From: Nonomuraea typhae
GTDB taxonomy: Bacteria > Actinomycetota > Actinomycetes > Streptosporangiales > Streptosporangiaceae
DNA: 64,000 nucleotides
NCBI RefSeq assembly: GCF_009760925.1
Contig: NZ_VRLV01000002.1
Span: 806,001 to 870,000, forward strand
Direction: 5' to 3'
Of this stretch, positions 22,901 through 34,547 are shown piece after piece (position 1 is the first letter of the stretch; the number at the start of each line of letters is the position of its first letter). The notes under the pieces were generated by a model. The model saw only the letters and a list, made by a program, of their open reading frames with translations. It was not told the DNA's origin and made no database searches. The translations under genes were made by a program, and so were the position numbers.

Positions 22901-23778
22901 AGGAAGACGAGGATGTCGCCGGGCCCTTCCAGGACGAGTTCCCTGCACGCCTCGACGATGCCCTGCGTCTGGTCGTCCTCGTCGTTGAGCGGCCGGTAGC
23001 GGACCTCGACCGGGTAGGTGCGGCCGGAGACCTCGACGATCGGGGCGTCGCCGAAGTGGCGGGAGAAGCGCTCGGGGTCGATCGTGGCGCTGGTGATGAT
23101 GATCTTGAGGTCGGGGCGGCGGGGCAGCAGCTGTTTGAGGTAGCCGAGGATGAAGTCGATGTTGAGGCTGCGCTCGTGGGCCTCGTCGATGATCAGCGTG
23201 TCGTACTGCTCCAGCAGCCGGTCGTTCTGCAGCTCGGCCAGCAGGATGCCGTCGGTCATGAGCTTGACCAGGGTCCGGTCACTGGCCTGGTCGGTGAAGC
23301 GGACCTTGTAGCCGACGGTCTGCCCCAGCTCGGTGCCGAGTTCTTCGGCGATGCGCTCGGCGACGGTCCTGGCGGCGATCCGGCGGGGCTGGGTGTGCCC
23401 GATGACGCCGCGCACGCCGCGCCCGAGCTCGAGGCAGATCTTGGGGATCTGGGTGGTCTTGCCGGAGCCGGTCTCGCCCGCGATGATCACGACCTGGTGG
23501 TCGCGGATGGCCTCGAGGATGTCGTCCCTGCGCTGGGAGACGGGCAGCTCTTCCGGATAGGTCACCGCGGGTACGGCTTCGCGGCGCCGGACCAGGCGCT
23601 GCTCGGCGCGTTCGACGTCGGCGAGGATCTCCGCGGTGATCTTGTCACGCGCCTCGCGGGAGCGTACCCGGCGCACGCCGTCGAGCCTGCGCCGAAGGCG
23701 CCGCTGGTCGCGCGGCATGAGTTCGGGCAGGCGGCTCTGGAGCTCGGACAGTGGAGAGGACAACGACGAGGTTCCCAT
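19912..23778 (-). CDS. hrpA: ATP-dependent RNA helicase HrpA (DEAH box)
   Basis: About 1288 residues, close to the usual length of HrpA. Walker A GETGSGKT lies at about 101-108, with DEAH in LIIDEAHERS near 198. SAT is present (IITSATI), as is motif VI with QRKGRSGR. The helicase-associated and OB domains are followed by the long DUF3418 C-terminal region. HrpA unwinds RNA and resolves stalled ribosomes in E. coli. I chose ATG 23778, preceded by GAAAG. A longer frame to 23904 adds residues that do not fit the family. Confidence 0.93.
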   Translation of the reverse strand: MGTSSLSSPLSELQSRLPELMPRDQRRLRRRLDGVRRVRSREARDKITAEILADVERAEQRLVRRREAVPAVTYPEELPVSQRRDDILEAIRDHQVVIIAGETGSGKTTQIPKICLELGRGVRGVIGHTQPRRIAARTVAERIAEELGTELGQTVGYKVRFTDQASDRTLVKLMTDGILLAELQNDRLLEQYDTLIIDEAHERSLNIDFILGYLKQLLPRRPDLKIIITSATIDPERFSRHFGDAPIVEVSGRTYPVEVRYRPLNDEDDQTQGIVEACRELVLEGPGDILVFLSGEREIRDAADALGKADFRNTEVLPLYARLSAAEQHRVFQRHTGRRIVLATNVAETSLTVPGIKYVVDPGFARISRYSHRTKVQRLPIEAISQASANQRKGRSGRTSDGICIRLYEEEDFLNRPEFTDPEILRTNLASVILQMTSIGLGDIEAFPFVEPPDKRQVRDGVNLLVELGAFDAHGTLTGVGRKLAGLPVDPRLARMVLEADKNGCLREVMVIAAALSIQDPRERPADKQQQADEKHRRFADPESDFLTYLNLWNYLKDKQKELSSSAFRRLCKAEFLNYLRVREWQDIYSQIRQTLGVQPNSTPASPYQIHGSLLVGLLSHIGVKDVVEKQRGQDGRRPIQEYVGARNARFAIFPGSALARKQPQWLMSAELVETSRLWARVNAKIEPDWVEPLAQHLVKRTYSEPHWEKNQGAVIALEKVTLYGVPLVVGRKVNYGRIDPELSRELFIRHALVEGDWDSHHAFLKENRKLLGEVEELEARARRRDIMVDDEALFDFYDQRVPADVVSARHFDSWWKKVEDKTVLTFTPEMLVNEGADVSARDYPDTWRQLGQRMKLTYQFEPGADADGVTVHVPLQVLNQVNGDGFDWQIPGLREELITALIRALPKNVRRNFVPAPNYAKQVLAGVKPTGEPLLEAVERELLRLTGIRVPRDAWQLDQVPDHLRITYRVIDERKRTIAEGKDIDALKKQLAPRLRKTLSAAGDDVERTGLHTWSFGALPKVFEQGRMKGYPALVDEGTSVGVKIFETQAEQRRSMWTGTRRLLLLNVTNPARSLLGGLSNQAKLALSRSPHGGAVALFDDVVNAAVDKLMTDVGGPAWEPVAFDRLYQHVRAELYDTARDVLGKVEQILSAWHTVGTQLAALRQSASTDDVREQLDRLVFAGFVTATGVKRLPDVSRYIRAIERRLTKLPEEPWRDEEWMGRVHKVEDDYYDALDRLPPARRGDAEVREIRWMIEELRVSFFAQTLGTPTPVSEKRITRALEKLSP

Positions 23779-23875
23779 ACTGCTTTCAGGATATTTGAGC
23801 CCCGCGTGCCGGGTGCCAACCGCCCATCGTGCCCGAGCGCGGCGGGCCGCGCATCCCAATATCGCCCCACGTGTG

Positions 23876-23937
23876 GTCCGTGGCCGGCCGCGGTGTGTCA
23901 GCACTCTCCCCAGAGTTCACCACGGTCGGCCACGGAC
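23876..23937. repeat. Long inverted repeat able to form an extended hairpin
   Basis: Perfect 11-base arms GTCCGTGGCCG (23876-23886) and CGGCCACGGAC (23927-23937). Pairing continues inward through CCG/CGG and GGTG/CACC with a G-T pair and one mismatch. That makes a stem of roughly 20 base pairs and a loop of about 22 bases. It may be an RNA structure, a protein site or a relic of a mobile element. Confidence 0.6.
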
Positions 23938-24166
23938 ACTAGTGAGACTCCTGAGACGGCCGATGGGTTGCATGCCTCCCGGGAGATTTTTGATCACGAC
24001 CGGCCTGTGGGACGCCGGTGCCGGGGCAGCGCCCGGTCCGGCCTCGCGAGTGGTACGGCCGGCGAGTCCTGAGACCAGTGTGGCAGGTGTGCTTCAGCGG
24101 GATTGGCGTTATATGAAAAGAATCTTGCCCATTTCGTTTAAATCGTGAGAAGTCAAGAAATAGCCC

Positions 24167-24172
24167 TATACT
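24167..24172 (+). promoter_or_regulatory. Candidate -10 box for the Crp-family gene
   Basis: TATACT matches the sigma-70-type -10 consensus at five of six positions, 43 bases before the ATG and in an AT-rich patch. The -35 region is poor. Confidence 0.4.
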
Positions 24173-24215
24173 CAACGCCCTCCACGTAGTCTTCGTTAGA
24201 ACGAGGGCGACAGCC

Positions 24216-24923
24216 ATGCGCGAATACCCGGAAGAACGTCGCGAACGAGGCTGGCCTCCCGGAACATTCATGGCCAAGCTTCCCCCCGCGGACCGGCGCG
24301 AGTTTCTTGATCTAGGACGGCACCGGATGCATCCGGCCGACACGACGCTCATCCGCCAGGGCGACCCGGCAGGCGACGTCTATTTACTCATCGACGCGCT
24401 CGTGAAGGTGACGGCGACCGTCGAGAACGGCGCGCAGACGCTGCTCGCCATCCGCCTGTCCGGCGACCTGGTCGGGGAGATGGCGGTCCTCGACAACACC
24501 GCCCGCTTCGCGACGGTCACGACCTGCCGCAGGTCGTTGATCAGTCACATCCCCGGGCCGGTGTTCCTGGCGCACCTCGACGCCAGGCCCGCGACCGCGC
24601 TGACGCTCAACCGGATGTTCAGCTCCCGGCTGCGCTACGCCAACCAGCGGCGGCTCGACATCGGCGGCTATCCGGTGGCGGTGCGCCTGGGCAGGGTGCT
24701 GCTGGAGCTGGCCGAGCTCCACGGCACCAGGACGGGCGAGTGCGCCAGCGTGGGCGTGACGCTGACGCAGGCGGAGTACGCGGCGCTCATCGGCGCCGCA
24801 CCCGATTCGGTCAACCGCGCGATGCGCCAGCTGGCGGGGCTGGGGTATCTCGATTCGCGGTCCCGGCCCGTCAAGATCACTAAATACACAGAGCTAGCCA
24901 CATTCTCCGATATTTCAACATAA
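24216..24923 (+). CDS. Crp/Fnr family transcriptional regulator
   Basis: A 235-residue regulator with an N-terminal cyclic-nucleotide-binding beta-roll. DVYLLIDALVKVTATVENG and the phosphate-binding-cassette-like SGDLVGEMAVLDNTARFATV are visible. A C-terminal helix-turn-helix includes LTQAEYAALIGAAPDSVNRA. The Arg and acidic residue of the cassette are compatible with nucleotide binding, but the ligand is not certain. It lies directly upstream of the five-gene cyclase-homology operon, in the same direction. The gap holds three 11-base repeats. The ATG follows GAGGG. Confidence 0.88.
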   Translation: MREYPEERRERGWPPGTFMAKLPPADRREFLDLGRHRMHPADTTLIRQGDPAGDVYLLIDALVKVTATVENGAQTLLAIRLSGDLVGEMAVLDNTARFATVTTCRRSLISHIPGPVFLAHLDARPATALTLNRMFSSRLRYANQRRLDIGGYPVAVRLGRVLLELAELHGTRTGECASVGVTLTQAEYAALIGAAPDSVNRAMRQLAGLGYLDSRSRPVKITKYTELATFSDIST

Positions 24924-24968
24924 ATCGCGCAAAAACTACGCACTCCCGGCGAATCGCATCACCCTGTC

Positions 24969-25002
24969 TTGAACGCTCAATGAACGTTCAATGAACACGT
25001 GT
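24969..25002. promoter_or_regulatory. Three 11-base direct repeats with internal palindrome
   Basis: Units TGAACGCTCAA (24970-24980), TGAACGTTCAA (24981-24991) and TGAACACGTGT (24992-25002) are in register at 11 bases, about one helical turn. TTGAACG (24969-24975) and CGTTCAA (24985-24991) also form an inverted pair. It is probably an operator array controlling the downstream operon. Confidence 0.55.
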
Positions 25003-25111
25003 GCGATCGGGCCCCACCATGCCCAAGCACCGTCGAACAACATTCTGAAATACCGCTCTACCGGATCTCCCGAAATATCGCCCGAAACCCGGATTTTGAC
25101 GGAATCCAATT

Positions 25112-25135
25112 GGCACACCCCTGGCAGGGTGTGCC
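25112..25135 (+). promoter_or_regulatory. Leader hairpin before the cyclase-homology operon
   Basis: Perfect 9-base arms GGCACACCC (25112-25120) and GGGTGTGCC (25127-25135) with a 6-base loop. It ends 14 bases before the GGAGG ribosome site at 25150-25154. It could be an attenuator, a terminator of upstream transcription or a stability element. Confidence 0.5.
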
Positions 25136-25160
25136 CACAGCCCACTTACGGAGGTAGCGA

Positions 25161-25940
25161 ATGCCTGATCTCGGCATGCCCAAACACCGGCCGATGATGA
25201 CGGTCGACCTGGAGGCGTACAGCCTGCGCACCAACTCCCAGCAGGCCACCGCCCAGGAGAACCTCAGCAGCGTCCTGGCCATCGCCGCCGCGGCCGCGGG
25301 CCTGGCCCGCGAAGGCTGGCTGATCCAGCAGACCGGCGACGGCGAGTTCTCGGTCCTGCCCGGCGGCACCCCGGTCGGGACGCTGGCCGAAACGTTCATC
25401 CCGGAGCTCTGCCTGGCCCTGGCCGCCCACAACCACCGGCCCAAGCCCTCCCCCTGGACCCGCCTGCGGCTGCGCCTGGCCCTGCACGAGGGCCCGATCC
25501 GCACCGACGGCGCCATGGGAGTCCCGGGCGGGCACGCGGTCCAGGTCAACCGCCTGGCGGACGCGCAGGCCGTACGCGACGCCCTGCGGCTCTGCCCGGG
25601 CGCCGACCTGGCCGTGATCGTCTCCGACCGGGTGTTCAACGACTACCTCAGCGACGGCTACGGCTCGCTGAGCCCGGCGGAGTTCCGGCAGGTGCACGTG
25701 CGCGCCAAGTCCGACACCTACACCGCCTACCTCTACGTCGCCGGCTGCGACCTGCACGAGCTCGCCGACCTGGACGCCTACGCCCCCGGACCGCCCGCCG
25801 CCGAGGAACCCCGCCCGCTGCCCGCCGGCCCCGGCACGCTCGTGTACGGCTCGGCCCACAAGATCACCGACTCCGTGGTCAACGAGACCCACGAGGGTGA
25901 CATCAACGTCGGGGACATCAGCCTGGGCGGGAAGCACTGA
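25161..25940 (+). CDS. Class III nucleotide-cyclase-homology protein with C-terminal adaptor motif
   Basis: A 259-residue protein resembling the class III adenylate/guanylate cyclase homology domain. MTVDLEAYS (Asp16) and QTGDGEFSVLP (Asp60) match the two metal-binding aspartates. The later Asn/Arg region (GHAVQVNRLADA) deviates from active cyclases, so catalysis is uncertain. After a Pro-rich linker the protein ends with a motif at about residues 230-256, containing SVVNETHEGDINVGDIS. A closely similar motif occurs near residues 95-117 of the next protein. The ATG follows GGAGGTAGCG. It is first of five coupled genes. Confidence 0.75.
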   Translation: MPDLGMPKHRPMMTVDLEAYSLRTNSQQATAQENLSSVLAIAAAAAGLAREGWLIQQTGDGEFSVLPGGTPVGTLAETFIPELCLALAAHNHRPKPSPWTRLRLRLALHEGPIRTDGAMGVPGGHAVQVNRLADAQAVRDALRLCPGADLAVIVSDRVFNDYLSDGYGSLSPAEFRQVHVRAKSDTYTAYLYVAGCDLHELADLDAYAPGPPAAEEPRPLPAGPGTLVYGSAHKITDSVVNETHEGDINVGDISLGGKH

Positions 25941-25941
25941 G

Positions 25942-28191
25942 ATGACCGAGCCCCACCCCGCGGGGGACCCGGAGCCGGAGCCTCCGGAACCGCCGTCCTC
26001 CCCCGCCGCGCCCCCTGCCCAGGACCCCGGTCCGGAGGCGGACGGCGCGGCCGAGCCGACGCCGGAGCCTCCGGCTCCCGCGGACAGCACGCCGGAGGAG
26101 CAGCCGCGGCGCGTCTCGCTGGACGAGGAGGAGACCGACGACGACCTCCCCCTGAACCATCGCATGGTGGCCGAGGAGCGCGAGCGCAGCATGCGCGAGC
26201 TCAACCTGGCCACGCTCGCCCTGGGCTCGTCCCACCAGGTCAAGGACTCGGTGTACGCCGAGACCCACGGCGGCGACATCTTCATCGGGAGCACGGTTCC
26301 GCGCGCCCGCGCCCACCCGGTCGCCCGGCACGTGGTCGAGGCGACGCTGGTCCCGACCGAGTCCTACTGGGAGCTGGTGAAGCGCCTCGACCACGAGAGC
26401 CTGGTCGTGATCGGCGGCGGCGCCAGGAGCGGGCGCGAGTTCGCCGCCCTGGCCGCGCTGCTGTATCCGCGCACCGGGCGGAACGACGAGCCGGAGGCCG
26501 CGGTCCTCATGCTCGACGCCGACCCCTCTGAGCTGCGCGAGTCCGACCTGTCCAGAGGCGTGGGCTACGTGGTGGACGCGACCGGCGCAGGCTGGCGCAG
26601 GCGGCCGGAGCGGGCCCTGCGGCAGCTCGCCGATCTGGCCAGGCGGCTGTCGTGCCGGTTCGTGGTGCTGGCCGGGCCCGAGGGCCTGGCCGAGCAGATC
26701 GCGGTGCCGCACGACAGGCCGGAGCCGGAGCGCGTGTTCGCCCGGTGGCTGCGCCACGAGCTGCGCGACCAGGCCGGCGCGCTGCCCGCCGGGGTGGTGG
26801 CCGCGCTGGGCCTGGACGGGCACGACAGCACGCGCTCGACCGGCTACGACACCTTCGACCTGGCCCTGCTGGCCAAGCTGCCCGGCTACGAGAAGCTCGA
26901 CGTGGCCGAACTCACCCCGGGCGAGAGCGCCCGGCTGGCGAGGGAGGCGGCGAAGGTCCTGGTCAGGACGGGTGACCTGGCCAGCCTGTCCGAGCTGCAG
27001 CCGAGGCAGTTGCGGGAGAAGGCGCAGCGGCTCCTCGACGACCGCGACGTGGCGCTGGTCTGCTTCACGCTCAGCGCGGCGGTGCTCAACGGCCTGTCCG
27101 TGGTCACGGTCACCCGGGCCGCGGCCGGGCTGGCCGAGCTGATCGGCACCGGCGGTGAGGGTGCCGAGCCCCGGTCGTGGGCGTGGCTGGAGAAGGCGCT
27201 GGACCACGCGGAGGCCGAGACGGAGGAGAGCGAGTCCGGCGACAAGGGGCGCGTGGTCCGGCTGCGCCAGCCGCTCATGGCCGCCGCCATCCTGGAGGTG
27301 GCCTGGCGCGAGGGACAGAGCATCCGCGACCCGCTGCAGGGCTGGCTGAGCCACCTGTCGGAGCACCGCCAGCGCGAGGTCCGCATCAAGGCCGCGCACG
27401 CGATCGGGCGGCTGGCCGCCTTCGACTTCGACGTCGTCGACCACGCGTTCCTGAAGAAATGGAGCGGCGCCAAGGCCACGTGGCGGACCCGGTGGCTGGC
27501 GGCCTGGACGCTGGAGGCCGGCGCCCGCGTCGAGGAGATCGCGCCGCTGATCACCCGGCGGCTGGCCGACTGGTCGAAGGGCACCCGGGCGCAGCGCTCG
27601 ATCGTGGTCAAGGCGTACGGCTCCTGGATCGGCGAGCAGCGCGTGGAGGAGGCGATGAACGCCTTCCGGCGGGTGCTGGTCAAGGAGGCGCCGCCGTACA
27701 TGCAGGAAGCCGTGGCGCGGTCGGTGACCGAGATCCTCACCCCGGCCAGCGCGGCCCCGATCCTCGCGCACGCCGACGAGTGGGCCCGGCTGGGCAGCTG
27801 GGAGCTGAGCCGGACGGCGGCGCTGGTGCTGACCCGGCTGGTGGTGGCCGCGGGCGGGCTGCGGGTGGAGTGGTTCGACTCGGCCGAATGGGCGCTGGCC
27901 CGGCCGAGGCTGGTGCGGCTGTGGGTGAACGCGCTCGCCCACGGCCTGGGCAGGGGGTTCTCGGCCGAGCGCCCGGTGATCGAGGCGTGGTCGGCGCTGA
28001 CCGCGTGGGTGACGGGCTGGACGGATCTCGACGAGCGCAGGCGTGGCGTCGTCGAGGAGGTCTTCCGGCTGAGCGACAGCGCGCTGGACGCGCCGCTGCG
28101 GATGCACATGAAGCACTGGTACCTGCGCGAGGAGCTGAGCGCCGACCTCGCCAGGCACCTGGACCGGCTGATGAAGGAGCCCAAGGCATGA
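25942..28191 (+). CDS. Large helical-repeat protein with degenerate P-loop and shared adaptor motif
   Basis: A 749-residue protein of unrecognised family. Residues 1-70 are Pro/Glu-rich and disordered. The motif with DSVYAETHGGDIFIGS (about 103-117) resembles the tail of the preceding protein. Near residue 155, VVIGGGARSGREFAA looks like a P-loop region without the usual GK[ST], so ATPase activity is doubtful. From about residue 420 on the chain is helical and HEAT-like (EVRIKAAHAIGRLAAF is typical). This suggests a sensor or scaffold with STAND-like ancestry. The ATG at 25942 is one base after the previous stop. Confidence 0.7.
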   Translation: MTEPHPAGDPEPEPPEPPSSPAAPPAQDPGPEADGAAEPTPEPPAPADSTPEEQPRRVSLDEEETDDDLPLNHRMVAEERERSMRELNLATLALGSSHQVKDSVYAETHGGDIFIGSTVPRARAHPVARHVVEATLVPTESYWELVKRLDHESLVVIGGGARSGREFAALAALLYPRTGRNDEPEAAVLMLDADPSELRESDLSRGVGYVVDATGAGWRRRPERALRQLADLARRLSCRFVVLAGPEGLAEQIAVPHDRPEPERVFARWLRHELRDQAGALPAGVVAALGLDGHDSTRSTGYDTFDLALLAKLPGYEKLDVAELTPGESARLAREAAKVLVRTGDLASLSELQPRQLREKAQRLLDDRDVALVCFTLSAAVLNGLSVVTVTRAAAGLAELIGTGGEGAEPRSWAWLEKALDHAEAETEESESGDKGRVVRLRQPLMAAAILEVAWREGQSIRDPLQGWLSHLSEHRQREVRIKAAHAIGRLAAFDFDVVDHAFLKKWSGAKATWRTRWLAAWTLEAGARVEEIAPLITRRLADWSKGTRAQRSIVVKAYGSWIGEQRVEEAMNAFRRVLVKEAPPYMQEAVARSVTEILTPASAAPILAHADEWARLGSWELSRTAALVLTRLVVAAGGLRVEWFDSAEWALARPRLVRLWVNALAHGLGRGFSAERPVIEAWSALTAWVTGWTDLDERRRGVVEEVFRLSDSALDAPLRMHMKHWYLREELSADLARHLDRLMKEPKA

Positions 28192-29096
28192 GATTTCTCC
28201 GCCGACTGTGGACCAGGATCCGGCGCGGGCCCGTCCCCGAGAGCGCGGTGCCGCACGCCTGCACGGCGGAGGAACCGCCGAACCCGATCATGTACACCCA
28301 GCGTGTCCTCCAGCCGCCGCCGATGGTCTGCACGCACTCCCAGAGCGAGGGCCTGCACGTCACCGACGAGGCGCTGACGCTGGTGACACCCGCCGAGGGC
28401 GACGCCCTGCACTTCGAGGTCTCGGTCTGGGTCACCTGGTGCGCCCAGCCGGCGACGCCGCAGAACGACGACGAGGCGCTGCTGCGGACGGAGATCGCCA
28501 CCCTGCGCAGCCGGGTCAGGCGCGAGGTGCACGACCTGGTGCGCGCGGCGGCGCGGACGATCCCGGCGCACCGGCCGGAGCTGGCCGAGGAGGAGATCCA
28601 GCGCGCGCTGAACGGCCGCTACACCCGGGCCGTGCACGACTGCGACCGGGTGATCGTCAAGGTCGCCGCACGCACCTGGGTCACGCTGACCGAGGACGTG
28701 CGCGAGCGCCAGCGGAAGCTGGCCTACCTGATCATGGATGAGCACGCGCGCCTGCAGCTCACCAAGGCGCGGGTGGAGCGGCTGGGCGCGGAGCGCGACG
28801 TGTGGATGGACTTCCTCATCGCCAGCGACCAGTCGTGGCGCGGCCGCTTCGCCGTCCTCCTGGCCGAGCACGGCACGAACGCGGCCGAGGTCATCCTCAC
28901 CATGCAGCAGGCCCGCAAGGGCGAGCTCGAGCACTTCGTCAGCGTGCTGCAGATGGTGGACAACGCGCAGAAGGCCGCCAACGTCAACATCTTCGACCTG
29001 GTCACCGGCAGCGACAAGGTGATCCGCGAGGCGTTCGAACGGCTGGGCGTCGAGCTGTCCCCGGCGGGCGCCATGCCGTGGGAGGAGCAGGGATGA
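28188..29096 (+). CDS. Unrecognised 302-aa protein, possibly SPFH/band-7-like
   Basis: A soluble-looking protein with a basic N-terminus (FLRRLWTRIRR). The order of a beta segment (LHFEVSVWVTW), a helix with EVHDLVRAAARTIP, and then VIVKVAARTWVTLTEDV followed by a long charged helix recalls the SPFH/band-7 fold. Similarity is too weak to be sure. SPFH proteins organise membrane microdomains and partner with membrane proteins, which would fit the 4-TM protein two genes on. The start overlaps the previous stop (ATGA). Confidence 0.6.
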   Translation: MRFLRRLWTRIRRGPVPESAVPHACTAEEPPNPIMYTQRVLQPPPMVCTHSQSEGLHVTDEALTLVTPAEGDALHFEVSVWVTWCAQPATPQNDDEALLRTEIATLRSRVRREVHDLVRAAARTIPAHRPELAEEEIQRALNGRYTRAVHDCDRVIVKVAARTWVTLTEDVRERQRKLAYLIMDEHARLQLTKARVERLGAERDVWMDFLIASDQSWRGRFAVLLAEHGTNAAEVILTMQQARKGELEHFVSVLQMVDNAQKAANVNIFDLVTGSDKVIREAFERLGVELSPAGAMPWEEQG

Positions 29097-30385
29097 GAGC
29101 ACACGCCTGCGCGGGCCTGTCGGTCCTCGCGATTCTGGTCTCGGGCTGCTCGGTGCTCGGTGGCGCACAGGCCACGACCGCCGACCCGGACGCCGCCTGC
29201 ACCGCCCTCAAAGGGCTCGAGGGCGATGGCACGGCGACCGCCGAGCAGCTCGTCATCATGGTGGACCGCAGCGCCTCGATGCGGAACAAGGACAGCGGTG
29301 AGGTGCCCGACTGGTACGCCGCGATCTTCGCCGGGGACGGCACCCCGCTGCCGGACGGCTCGGTCGGCTTCGGCTCGGGCGGCCTGATCCCGTCGCTGCG
29401 CACACCCGCGACGATCAGCGTCGGCGCCTTCGACGGCGGCAACCGGGTCACGGCCGCGGAGATCTCCCTGCCCCGCATGAGCGGCGGCGAGGTCAACCGC
29501 AGGGACTTCGCCGCCAACACCGGGTCCTGCCTGCGCTTCCACCTCGGGGAGAAGACGCTGTCGGCCCCGGACACGGAGGGCAGCAACGTGCTGGCCGCCT
29601 TCCAGCCCACCGTCACCGGCGCGGGACGGGACACCCGGCGCACCCTGGTCGTGGCCTCCGACGGATTGTCCACCACGGGCTGCGCCGGGCTGCTCACCAC
29701 CGCCATGCGCGACCCCGGCCACGCCGACCGGATCGTCAGGGCGTGCAGGGCCCAGAAGGCCGTTCCCGCGCTGCGCGGCTGGAGCGTGCGGATGCCCTGG
29801 GTCGGCAGTTCCGGCAAGGGCCACTCCCAGCCCCAGCAGGGCCATCTCACCTGGCTCGAACGGCTCTGGAGCGGCCTGTGCGCGGCGGCCACCGGCGAGG
29901 CCGGCTCGTGCGAGATCGGCGTGCGCCAGCAGCCCGGCGCGCTGCCGGCGACGGACGGCAGGCAGCCGACCGTGAAGGAGGGCGCCGCCGACGTGGCGGT
30001 GGCCTTCCAGCAGAGCGAGCACCCGCCCAGCTCGGTGCGGACCAAGGAGTTCCCCGGCGACCTGCTGTTCGCGACCGACTCGGCGACGTTGTCGGCCGGG
30101 GGGACGCGGCGGCTCAAGGAGTTCGCCGTGGAACTGGCCGCGCAGGGCCCGGAGACCGTCACCGTGATCGGCCACACCGATCGCCGCGGCAGCTCGGGCC
30201 ACAACGCCGCGCTGTCGGGAAGGCGGGCGGAAAGCGTCGCGGCGCTGCTTCAGGAGGAAGGGCTGCGCGGCGTCGCCGCCGAGGGCGCGGGAGAGGAACG
30301 GCCCAAGCCGGGCTGTCGCGGCGACAGCGCGGCGGACTACACGTGCAACCGCAGGGTGGAGATCGTTTACAAGGTGCGTGGATGA
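29093..30385 (+). CDS. Lipoprotein with vWA-like and OmpA-like domains
   Basis: A 430-residue predicted lipoprotein. The signal ends in lipobox VSGC (Cys19). A von Willebrand A-like domain follows, with MIDAS sequence DRSAS at 58-62. A C-terminal OmpA-like domain (about 323-425) contains FATDSATLSAGG, VIGHTDRRGSSGHN and LSGRRAESV, the expected peptidoglycan-binding pattern. It would sit on the outer face of the membrane and contact the wall. The vWA half suggests a protein ligand. The ATG overlaps the previous stop. Confidence 0.8.
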   Translation: MRAHACAGLSVLAILVSGCSVLGGAQATTADPDAACTALKGLEGDGTATAEQLVIMVDRSASMRNKDSGEVPDWYAAIFAGDGTPLPDGSVGFGSGGLIPSLRTPATISVGAFDGGNRVTAAEISLPRMSGGEVNRRDFAANTGSCLRFHLGEKTLSAPDTEGSNVLAAFQPTVTGAGRDTRRTLVVASDGLSTTGCAGLLTTAMRDPGHADRIVRACRAQKAVPALRGWSVRMPWVGSSGKGHSQPQQGHLTWLERLWSGLCAAATGEAGSCEIGVRQQPGALPATDGRQPTVKEGAADVAVAFQQSEHPPSSVRTKEFPGDLLFATDSATLSAGGTRRLKEFAVELAAQGPETVTVIGHTDRRGSSGHNAALSGRRAESVAALLQEEGLRGVAAEGAGEERPKPGCRGDSAADYTCNRRVEIVYKVRG

Positions 30386-30386
30386 C

Positions 30387-31661
30387 ATGAACGAAGACGC
30401 CGAGGAGCCGGTCGAGGGCGAGCTGGTCGAGGCCGGCGCGGCGCGGCCCGTGCACATGTGCCATCACGGGTGCGACTGCTGGCAGACCAACTTCGACCGG
30501 TACCTGACCGGCACACCGGCCCGGGCGCCGGAACAGCTCGACAACGTCGAGTCGCAGGCCCTGCTCGATGCCAAGAACCGGGCGACCCGCCTGGTCAGGC
30601 AGCACGAGGAGAGAATGGCGAGCGAACGCCGCCGGGTGATCACCACCGACGAGGACGCGCGGGCCGCCCTGGCCGTGCTGCGCTCGGTGGCCGAAGGCGG
30701 CGAGGTCGGCCGGGCCGTACAGGATCGGCGGCGGTTGCGCGAGGAGCGGGTCACGGCGGGCGTGCCGCAGCGGCCCCTGTGGGTGCGCGTGATCGTCTGG
30801 CCGACGATCATCGCGGTGGGCGCGTTCGACACGTGGTACTTCCAGAGCATCTTCCAGCGGTTCGTCGGCAACGCCGACGTGTCCTGGCGGGAGCAGGTGA
30901 TCACGTTCGCGCCCGGGCTGGCGCTCACCGTGGGCATCGTCGTGGCGGGCACGCTGCTGGGCGGGCCGGTCTTCCGCGCCGTCCGGCTGCACGGCGCGCG
31001 CCAGCGCAAGCGCGCCGGATTCCGGCGGGCCGCGGCGGCGATTCTGCACTGGACGATGCGGCTGGCCCTGCCGCTGCTGCTGATCGTGCTGATCGGCGGC
31101 TGGGCGCTCTACCGCGTACAGGACGTCAACGACGGCCCGCTCTCGAGGCCGCTGCCGCCGGACCTCATCACGATCCTGATGGTCACGCTGACGCTGTCGG
31201 CCATGGCGCTGAAGATCGTGGCCTACGACCCGTACGCGGCGCGCGAGGCGGAGGTCAAGCGCCGGGGCCGGCTGCTGAGGGCGCGGGCGGCGCTGCGGCT
31301 GCGCCGGGCGGGCAGCGCGGTCCGCCGGCACAGCCTGGCCCACAGCGACCTCAGCGCCCTGCGCGACGACCTGGTCAGCCGGGTCTCCGAGCAGTACGGC
31401 ACCGCCTACCAGTTCATGTTGTACGCCAGAGGCTTCCACGACCAGGCCGGTCCCCTGCCTCCGGACTTCGCCGACGGCACGCGCGGATCCGGCCTGCGGG
31501 ACCGGATCCGGCCGGAGCTGGCCGGAATCACCGGGCCGGAGCCCGAGTTCGGCGCGTTGCTGCAGGTGCAGGAGGTCCTGGAGCGCCATCCGGCCCTGCG
31601 GGCCCGCGAGGAGCTGGACCGGCTGGCGGAGCTGCTGGCCGGGCAGAGGGCGGCCCCGTGA
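30387..31661 (+). CDS. Four-TM membrane protein with Cys/His-rich N-terminus
   Basis: About 424 residues with four predicted TM helices near 131-150, 170-192, 222-242 and 258-278. The N-terminal cytoplasmic region has a compact CHHGCDCW cluster that could bind metal, then a helical stretch. The C-terminal 140 residues are charged and helical. I do not recognise the family. ATG 30387 is 10 bases after AAGGTG; GTG 30378, overlapping the lipoprotein gene, is an alternative. It is the last gene of the five-gene unit and would place the system at the membrane. Confidence 0.7.
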   Translation: MNEDAEEPVEGELVEAGAARPVHMCHHGCDCWQTNFDRYLTGTPARAPEQLDNVESQALLDAKNRATRLVRQHEERMASERRRVITTDEDARAALAVLRSVAEGGEVGRAVQDRRRLREERVTAGVPQRPLWVRVIVWPTIIAVGAFDTWYFQSIFQRFVGNADVSWREQVITFAPGLALTVGIVVAGTLLGGPVFRAVRLHGARQRKRAGFRRAAAAILHWTMRLALPLLLIVLIGGWALYRVQDVNDGPLSRPLPPDLITILMVTLTLSAMALKIVAYDPYAAREAEVKRRGRLLRARAALRLRRAGSAVRRHSLAHSDLSALRDDLVSRVSEQYGTAYQFMLYARGFHDQAGPLPPDFADGTRGSGLRDRIRPELAGITGPEPEFGALLQVQEVLERHPALRAREELDRLAELLAGQRAAP

Positions 31662-31699
31662 GCCGCGGGGTGGGCTGGGGCTGATCCCCGGGAGGCCGG

Positions 31700-32437
31700 C
31701 TACGCCGCCGGTGGCGGTCCCGCGGGGGCGGCCACCAGTGCGGCGCCGATGATGCCCGCCTCGTTCTGGAGCGCGGCGGGCACGATCGGCGTGTCGATCT
31801 TCACGTGCGGCAGGAACTTGTCCGCCTTTTTGCTGACTCCGCCGCCGATGATGAACAGCGTGGGCGAGAAGAGCTTCTCCACGTGCTTCAGGTAGGTCTC
31901 GACGCGTTCCGCCCACTCCTTCCAGCCGAGGTCCTCCTCCTCGCGGGCCCGGTCGGAGGCGCGGTGCTCGGCGTCCTTGCCGTGCAGCTCCAGGTGCCCG
32001 AGTTCGGTATTGGGGACCAGCACGCCGTCGGCGAACAGCGCGCTGCCGATGCCGGTGCCGAACGTCAGCATGAGGACGGTGCCCTTGCGCGAGCGCCCCT
32101 CTCCGAACCTGAGCTCGGCCAGGCCGGCGGCGTCGGCGTCGTTGACGACCCGGGCGCCGCCGAACAGATCCGCGGCGTCCACGCCGACCCACGAGTGGTG
32201 GACGTTGGCGGCGCTCCTGACCACCCCGTCCATGATCACGCCGGGAAAGGTCACGCCGACGGGACCGGTCCAGGAGAAGTGATCGACGATCTGCGCGACG
32301 GTTTCCGCCATGGGCGCGGGCTTGGCGGGCTGGGGCGTCGGGATGCGCAGGCGCTCCTGCGTGAGGCGGCCCGCCACCACGTCCACGGGCGCTCCCTTGA
32401 TCCCCGAACCGCCGATATCGATGCCCAGAACTTCCAT
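31700..32437 (-). CDS. ppgK: Polyphosphate glucokinase (ROK family)
   Basis: A 245-residue ROK-family kinase, close to actinobacterial PpgK, which phosphorylates glucose using polyphosphate or ATP. It shows the phosphate-binding [20 protein letters not shown]-type [21 protein letters not shown] in the glucose site, and the actinobacterial [13 protein letters not shown] segment. ATG 32437 follows GGGA; a longer start at 32464 has poorer support. It would feed glucose, including that released from cellobiose, into glycolysis. It is divergent from the TIGR03118 gene. Confidence 0.9.
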
Positions 32438-33773: not shown

Positions 33774-34547
33774 ATGGCTAGAGTCGCCCGCATGAGCGAG
33801 GAATCCTTCAGCGCGTGGCTGCGCGCCCAGTGCGCGGACGAGTGGGAGGCGGTGGCCGGGCACCCGTTCGCCGCCGCCATCACGACCGGCGACGCCGACA
33901 TGCGGCACTACCTGGAGCAGGACTTCCTGTTCGTCGACTCCTTCACCGCGCTGCTCGGGGCGGCCGTGGCCAGTGCGGACACCTTCGCCGCCCGCGTGCC
34001 GTACGGGCAGTTCCTCGGGCAGGTGGCCACGGCCGAGGAGAAGACGTATTTCCATCGCGCGCTGGCCGCGCTCGGCGGCAGCACCGAGGCGGCGCCCGAG
34101 CCGGTCACGGCGGAGTTCCGGGCGCTCATGGACGAGGTGCGCGCCGCGCAGGACTACCCGCTGATCGTGGCGGTGCTGTGCGTGGCCGAGTGGAGCTACC
34201 TGAGCTGGGCGGAGCGGGCGGAGGAGCCGCTGCCGGCGACGTTCGTGCACCGGGAGTGGATCGACCTGCACGAGGGGCCGGAGTTCCGGGCGTGGGTGGA
34301 CTTCCTGCGCGGCGAACTGGACCGCCTCGGGCCCGCCCTGCCGGAGGAGCGCGCGGCTCAGGTGCTGGCGACGTTCCGGCGCGCGGTCGCGCTGGAACGA
34401 CGCTTCTTCGACATGGCCGACGCGGACATGGCCGTCACAGACATGGCCGTCACAGACATGGCCGACGCGGACGTGGCCGACGCGGACGTGGCCGACGCGG
34501 ACGTGGCCGACGCGGACGTGGCCGACGCGGACGTGGCTAGCCGATGA
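33774..34547 (+). CDS. TenA/thiaminase-II-like protein with pentapeptide-repeat tail
   Basis: About 257 residues. The TenA-like all-helical domain is recognisable from YLEQDFLFVDSF, SAD-rich helices and VLCVAEWSYLSWA, where Cys and Glu occupy the usual active-site region. TenA enzymes hydrolyse thiamine breakdown products; some paralogues have other substrates. The final 44 residues are eight copies of a five-residue unit (MADAD, MAVTD or VADAD), then VASR. ATG 33774 follows GGGGAG. The repeat overlaps the end of the convergent HAD gene. Confidence 0.8.
   Translation: MARVARMSEESFSAWLRAQCADEWEAVAGHPFAAAITTGDADMRHYLEQDFLFVDSFTALLGAAVASADTFAARVPYGQFLGQVATAEEKTYFHRALAALGGSTEAAPEPVTAEFRALMDEVRAAQDYPLIVAVLCVAEWSYLSWAERAEEPLPATFVHREWIDLHEGPEFRAWVDFLRGELDRLGPALPEERAAQVLATFRRAVALERRFFDMADADMAVTDMAVTDMADADVADADVADADVADADVADADVASR
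34413..34532 (+). repeat. Eight 15-base tandem repeats at the 3' end of the tenA-like gene
   Basis: Eight in-frame units of 15 bases run from 34413 to 34532. The last four are identical copies of GTGGCCGACGCGGAC. They encode an acidic, alanine-rich tail. Identical copies suggest recent expansion by slippage, so copy number may vary between strains. Confidence 0.9.

Follow-up and report, generated by a model that had tools for sequence, protein, structure and literature searches.

Five tightly packed genes in the filamentous soil actinomycete Nonomuraea typhae raise the question of what kind of system they encode and how its parts work together. The genes, here called A to E, occupy positions 25161–31661 of the stretch of DNA that was analyzed (the window, 64,000 nucleotides of contig NZ_VRLV01000002.1), with a regulator gene, R, upstream. 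All five genes run in the same direction, and the spacings A/B, B/C, C/D, and D/E are +1, −4, −4, and +1 bases, as the original prediction for this DNA had given them. A codon-usage gene call confirmed the reading frames, with different start codons for R, A, and E. The original prediction did not recognize the system, and neither did Pfam, NCBIfam, or PADLOC, whose family scans named just R, the OmpA part of D, and, weakly, HEAT and nSTAND3 in B. The most likely answer is a widespread system in which a receptor–effector pair, resembling those that carry bacterial amyloid signaling sequences (BASS), has a new class of effector and usually its own Crp-type regulator.

The evidence that carries this answer is a short motif common to the C-terminal end of A and the N-terminal end of B, which varies between loci and matches within a locus. 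In the window, with the A ends and B starts read side by side, the motif is GSAHKITDSVVNETHEGDINVG on A (residues 226–251, positions 25836–25913, plus strand) and GSSHQVKDSVYAETHGGDIFIG on B (residues 91–116, positions 26212–26289, plus strand). No other called protein of the window has the motif: B scores 79 against the A motif and the next best protein 34, with a query that was cut from the A–B alignment and so favors B. Pairing was then compared among loci (numbered with L) that had been located through matches to A, C, or E and thus form a non-random sample. Adjacent genes on the same strand, with A shorter than 340 and B longer than 550 amino acids, gave 51 pairs, or 52 with the window. 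These were thinned to 36 non-redundant pairs with a cut-off of 75 percent identity across the first 190 A residues, a step that also removes genomes present under two locus numbers (e.g., L032 and L054).

In a first pairing test, 11 of 16 loci had their own B in first place. A second test on the 36 pairs gave a score of 61.7 for own and 32.0 for foreign partners, with rank 1 in 23 and with 0 of 100,000 permutations as high. In the final test, proline was masked and, as the starts of several B genes had been called late, B was extended to the stop upstream. The mean score was 59.6 for own and 27.0 for foreign partners, none of 100,000 permutations reached the own mean (permutation maximum 36.6), and the own B ranked first in 24 and among the top three in 33 of the 36 pairs. 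Control regions, A residues 101–155 (25.9 versus 26.8) and B residues 251–420 (26.1 versus 25.9), carried no pairing signal. Furthermore, in 34 of 36 loci, with L139 a narrow case, the own B outscored every other called protein of its stretch, in a comparison whose query, the A segment cut from the A–B alignment, favors B; in the two exceptions, L115 and L144, the B starts were called late. Collectively, these results argue strongly for the pairing of A with B.

The motifs also appear to change faster than the domains that carry them while the pairs stay matched. This is suggested by ten chosen loci in which the A domains are 34–58 percent identical and yet only 4 of 45 tail–tail comparisons score above 40. 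In a side observation, the A-family tails in L134, L144, and L145 carry what looks by eye like a RHIM/BASS3-like core (GQVVQAG in L145 and GQVVQGG in L144), so that one effector family may contain both classical and new motif types. A search of plasmids with the 45-residue tail of L145 gave no match.

What protein A (25161–25940, plus strand) may be is indicated by its predicted structure, which agrees with its earlier description as a cyclase-homology protein. The AlphaFold2 model has a predicted local distance difference test (pLDDT) score of 77.7 overall and below 50 in the tail, residues 219–259, which includes the motif and is probably disordered. All 50 of the Foldseek matches listed for this model are class III cyclases (best E 1.1e-7), and VIA-align superposed it on the adenylyl cyclase Ma1120 with Z 16.5 and a root-mean-square deviation (rmsd) of 2.2 over 155 aligned residues. 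Sequence profiles found weak matches alone (E 0.15–0.26), all four of which named cyclases. Pfam gave no match in 15 members at E up to 0.1, nor in those of L134, L144, and L145 at E up to 10; PADLOC gave no hit on A at E up to 1, which places A outside the PycC family as defined there.

Residue conservation was counted, without reduction, in sets of 80 A, 50 R, and 55 B proteins (72 of the 80 A domains are distinct, as are 46 of 53 R and 48 of 55 B). The two metal Asp residues, D16 and D60, are present in the A of the window and kept in 71 and 73 of the 80 members, R103 and R105 in 79 each, R131 in 75, and K183 in 69. R131 aligns with the transition-state Arg of Ma1120, a role that we assume for it, and K183 is presumably the phosphate Lys. 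By its model, then, A has the fold of a class III cyclase and retains the two metal Asp residues.

Protein B (25942–28191, plus strand) was described earlier as a repeat protein, and its model (pLDDT 74.7, below 50 at residues 91–118) contains HEAT-like repeats (residues ~355–749) together with an NTPase-like part (residues ~119–359). Thus, both motif-bearing ends have low model confidence. In VIA-align, the NTPase-like part matched 3whk_D at residues 113–359 (Z 9.9, rmsd 3.7, 197 aligned) and PAN, Hsp104, FtsH, ClpC, and TRIP13 at Z 9–10, and residues 355–749 formed a HEAT-like solenoid of helical repeats, for which Z values of such size can reflect a common arrangement, as the program warns. 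The first Foldseek row was human SAMD9, with E 8e-5 but a TM score below 0.2, and most other rows were HEAT or armadillo proteins. Pfam nSTAND3 matched weakly in 3 of 15 members (best 0.0063) and at 0.0011 in L145, all below the Pfam cut-off, and a B profile found nothing among Protein Data Bank sequences at E up to 0.1. In the P-loop, the column of G164 is Gly in 55 of 55 members. As modeled, B may be a protein of AAA+/STAND NTPase type that continues into HEAT-like repeats.

The regulator R (24216–24923, plus strand), which the original prediction had correctly placed before the five genes as a Crp/Fnr-type protein, has a cyclic nucleotide monophosphate (cNMP)–binding domain and a Crp-type helix-turn-helix domain (Pfam cNMP_binding 1.7e-15, HTH_Crp_2 1.1e-10). 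In 27 of the 36 non-redundant pairs, it lies no more than two genes away from A. The pocket signature is present as G87 in 50, E/D88 in 50, R97 in 46, S/T98 in 37, and A99 in 47 of 50 members; this phosphate-binding-cassette pattern is consistent with ligand binding, without being proof of it. The 237-base spacer between R and A contains two adjoining TGAACG(C/T)TCA repeats (24970–24990), a possible R operator by sequence pattern. The pattern is absent elsewhere in the window, where 0.2 matches would be expected. At up to one mismatch, it occurs in none of 40 distinct R–A spacers of other loci, and at two mismatches in 5 of 40, compared with 2.4 in shuffles. Of the operator array proposed earlier, the two repeats therefore stand and may be a real operator in the window; as a conserved feature, an operator was not detected in the 40 spacers.

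Because the matched motif is found on A and B, A looks like an effector and B like a receptor; the earlier proposal of a chain running from a cytoplasmic sensor to the surface had overlooked this motif. On balance, the operon probably encodes an NLR (NOD-like receptor)–like signalosome, with B as receptor, the cyclase-fold protein A as effector, and R as the probable readout. In the mechanism that we infer, which goes beyond the observed pairing, gene order, and predicted folds in its amyloid step, cyclase activity, and ligand binding, B would be an AAA+/STAND-type NTPase with a HEAT-like sensor and a motif near its N-terminus, and A a cyclase-fold enzyme with the matching motif at its C-terminus. 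A trigger would oligomerize B, and the clustered B motifs would template the same fold in the tails of A, in an amyloid-like manner as in BASS, HET-s, and RHIM, bringing the A domains together. Class III cyclases require a dimer. A would then produce a cyclic nucleotide, R would bind it and alter transcription of the operon or of other targets, and C, D, and E would connect the system with the membrane and cell wall, either by passing the response to them or by reporting from them. Diversification of the motif would keep co-resident systems from cross-firing. A fully prion-like, amyloid-gated second-messenger switch, in which B assembly templates the A tail, clustering starts synthesis, and a Crp-type factor turns the signal into transcription, is a narrower claim that we regard as possible but short of probable.

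Several observations weigh against this mechanism. First, A is altered at positions that we take to matter for catalysis. Column 127, which by alignment with Ma1120 is the position of the presumed transition-state Asn, is Val in the window and mostly Val or Ile in the family, with Asn in 8 of 80 members; at the presumed base-contact positions, the Lys is replaced by Q56 (Q in 58 of 80) and the Asp by G120 (G in 69 of 80). Since these positions are changed, A could be a nucleotide sensor or use another substrate. The same changes speak for a pseudo-cyclase, in which case A would bind a nucleotide and serve as a sensor or as a brake on B instead of an effector enzyme, and inactive cNMP cyclase domains are described in conflict systems in passages of PMC7159879. 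Nevertheless, we consider a pseudo-cyclase somewhat unlikely: the metal Asp pair, Arg, and Lys of A are kept in 69 to 75 of 80 members, a regulator of cNMP-binding type is usually near A, and in the alignment the Asn position is Ala in Ma1120 too, although this protein was crystallized with nucleotides and as an adenylyl cyclase.

Second, ATPase activity of the proposed receptor B is doubtful, because most B proteins have Arg in place of the Walker A Lys. The column of R165 is Arg or Lys in 47 of 55 members (30 Arg and 17 Lys), and the window B reads GxxxxGRE instead of the canonical GxxxxGK[ST]; GKT occurs in L146 and L148. Third, a search within two genes of A turned up no R in 9 of the 36 pairs; among these, the L113 stretch starts at A, and in L026 and L028 an R lies a few genes beyond that range. 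The window R also has Phe after the Arg, where 37 of 50 members have Ser or Thr.

Fourth, the motif evidence has its own difficulties. Three pairs are outliers in the pairing test (L024 with rank 4, L115 with rank 9, and L139 with rank 22), and the low pLDDT at the motifs may merely reflect alignments of 11 sequences. Codons of identical residues in the two motifs agree in 296 of 456 cases, compared with 262 expected from the codon usage of each locus, and in 294 of 445, compared with 229 expected from pooled usage. The agreement is mostly what similarity at the protein level predicts, and the excess leaves room for some copying of DNA between the two motif sites, which is possible to some extent. 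The pairing, moreover, is known at the level of sequence, as would equally hold if the motif were an ordinary docking peptide, acting by β-augmentation or as a small heterodimer with the same receptor–effector logic and without amyloid templating. This explanation is unlikely in our judgment, as the presence of the same short stretch on both partners, together with the presumed RHIM/BASS3-like cores of L134, L144, and L145, fits homotypic assembly better than it fits a lock-and-key contact.

How much of the operon belongs to the signalosome can be judged from the genes downstream of B. Gene C (28188–29096, plus strand) encodes a conserved protein; the earlier label of SPFH-like was rejected at the profile level, as Band_7 matched none of 12 members and HHalign gave a probability of 0.2 percent, the level of the controls. 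The earlier descriptions of D and E held up. D (29093–30385, plus strand) is a lipoprotein-like protein that combines a vWA domain start (DxSxS) with an OmpA domain (PF00691, 4.7e-14), and E (30387–31661, plus strand; ATG start, with GTG at 30378 as alternative) is a four-transmembrane-like protein of no recognized family, with four hydrophobic segments at residues 131–281.

Among the 36 pairs, C-D-E follows B directly in 4 (the window, L106, L107, and L109), and 13 have C there but no D-E immediately behind it, including L034, where D-E comes after one gene on the opposite strand; C is a loose label for the longer proteins of L026, L147, and L148. In 12 pairs, B is followed by a protein X and a DUF4407-type membrane protein, identified by Pfam for L122 and by similarity to L122 at the other loci, and 7 pairs have other arrangements. 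Thus, A and B are the core, R is usually beside A, and the downstream modules are exchangeable. The five-gene order is conserved but rare: three other genomes have A-B-C-D-E without interruption, and a fourth has it in interrupted form. D and E look like accessories, as just 4 of the 36 pairs have C-D-E immediately behind B and A-B elsewhere stands without D-E.

This distribution also bears on the proposal that D and E detect damage to the cell wall and relay it inward to A-B by way of C. The vWA-OmpA lipoprotein and the transmembrane protein in this operon, and the DUF4407-type membrane protein of the alternative module, would suit such an envelope-stress module. With direct C-D-E linkage so infrequent and A-B able to do without D-E, we find it distinctly unlikely. 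Accordingly, the original comparison with modular conflict or envelope-stress systems holds as to a conserved, modular, and conflict-system-like organization, while envelope stress as the function is not established. Two further arrangements were seen. X, a protein of ~280–430 amino acids, occurs with the DUF4407-type protein in L118–L123, L130, L024, L025, L115, L116, and L139, and these systems seem to have in common one type of motif that mostly ends with FG or (I/V)G plus a hydrophobic residue. L047 (6871–12457) has B-C-D-E with neither A nor R, and an unrelated gene of 300 amino acids lies directly upstream of its B.

Compared to known systems, the A–B pair is closest in design to BASS pairs of Bell and NLR proteins. 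Both have adjacent genes with a matched motif on the effector C-terminus and the receptor N-terminus, and, according to parts of PMC7889193, the BASS pairs likewise show many motif types and occur in filamentous actinobacteria. The differences are threefold. First, the effector here has a cyclase fold, rather than being BELL, CHAT, or TIR, and a Crp-type regulator is usually nearby. Second, the receptor has a degenerate P-loop and HEAT-like repeats. Third, the modules are of C/D/E or X/DUF4407 type. Passages of PMC7889193 report BASS motifs chiefly from filamentous bacteria, together with BELL domains and, less often, with CHAT and TIR domains, and call the outcome unexplored; parts of PMC8086366 cover BASS families and peptide tests. 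The word "cyclase" is absent from the main text of PMC12261475 and PMC9815663. Among the papers listed by searches of the open-licence PubMed Central (PMC) literature, we found no description of an amyloid pair with a cyclase effector, or of an amyloid signalosome with second-messenger and transcriptional output.

Pycsar (PycC plus a cyclic-nucleotide effector) similarly encodes a cyclase-fold protein with a protein of cNMP-binding type. However, the PycC and PycTIR models hit R alone, over its cNMP-binding part, and the readout here would be transcription, not killing by TIR or transmembrane proteins, which we take to be the Pycsar architecture. Ma1120-type class III adenylyl cyclases share with A the fold, metal Asp, Arg, and Lys and differ from it at the base-contact positions and in having no motif tail. 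According to part of a 2004 survey (PMC2447327), the Streptomyces genomes then known had a single adenylyl cyclase.

A similar parts list is found in the VMAP/iSTAND ternary conflict systems with MoxR and vWA proteins (Kaur et al.). Excerpts of PMC7159879 and PMC8195603 place cyclases, Band-7, HEAT, vWA, and STAND parts, some of the latter inactive, in other conflict systems, and passages of PMC8195603 mention infrequent cNMP cyclases that share adaptor domains with iSTAND2. There too, effector and STAND-like NTPase carry a common tag, and cyclases occur among the effectors. We regard membership of the operon in these described systems as very improbable. The operon and its ten neighbors in the window contain no MoxR-type match, in scans that included no dedicated VMAP test, and the common element here is a short, diversified motif and not a helical adaptor domain.

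The system is widespread. With counts that include the genome of the window, A as query found matches in 9 of 41 relatives. C matched 13 of the 54 genomes searched within the genus and, in a sample of 394 drawn from the whole class, 6; E matched 9 of the 394, several of them partially. An A profile, with up to six candidates scored per genome, found members in 83 of the 394 genomes. Besides the window, the loci hold 79 A-labeled genes, of which 54 have a B-labeled gene within two genes, 54 an R-labeled gene, and 14 neither. The window's own genome contains a second A–B system with a different motif and a vWA-like (DVSKSMK) protein (L028, contig C23, ~299–309 kb), with two more A-like genes beside another R.

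At its chromosomal site, the block is a presence/absence unit, since congeners have the flanks without the block. The region between an HrpA-type helicase and a ROK glucokinase (window 23718–31700) is variable among them: the helicase is in all 15 other congeneric genomes examined, and at 8 of the 9 sites read, the two genes flank zero to three other called genes and no block, while the ninth (L156) has another arrangement beside the helicase. In L030 and L033, R-A-B-C stands directly beside the same helicase gene (76 percent identical to that of the window). A search of phages with A gave no hit, and B found two records in a plasmid collection, one of them an 11.85-Mb Nonomuraea record. The ten flanking genes in the window received no defense-system call, with only weak RecD-like ATPase matches to the helicase. 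Nearby, a TENA/THI-4-type protein (33792–34547) has a C-terminus of tandem repeats (VADADVADAD...).

Bacterial amyloid signaling is known chiefly from sequence pairs with effectors of BELL type, less often CHAT or TIR, as parts of PMC7889193 describe. The present finding adds a widespread cyclase-fold family, with members in 83 of 394 genomes of the class and none matched by Pfam among the 15 scanned. A cyclase-fold effector beside a cNMP-type regulator offers a measurable readout, in the form of a nucleotide and a promoter. If the proposed mechanism is true, a prion-like switch would be diversified in these bacteria into many mutually insulated channels.
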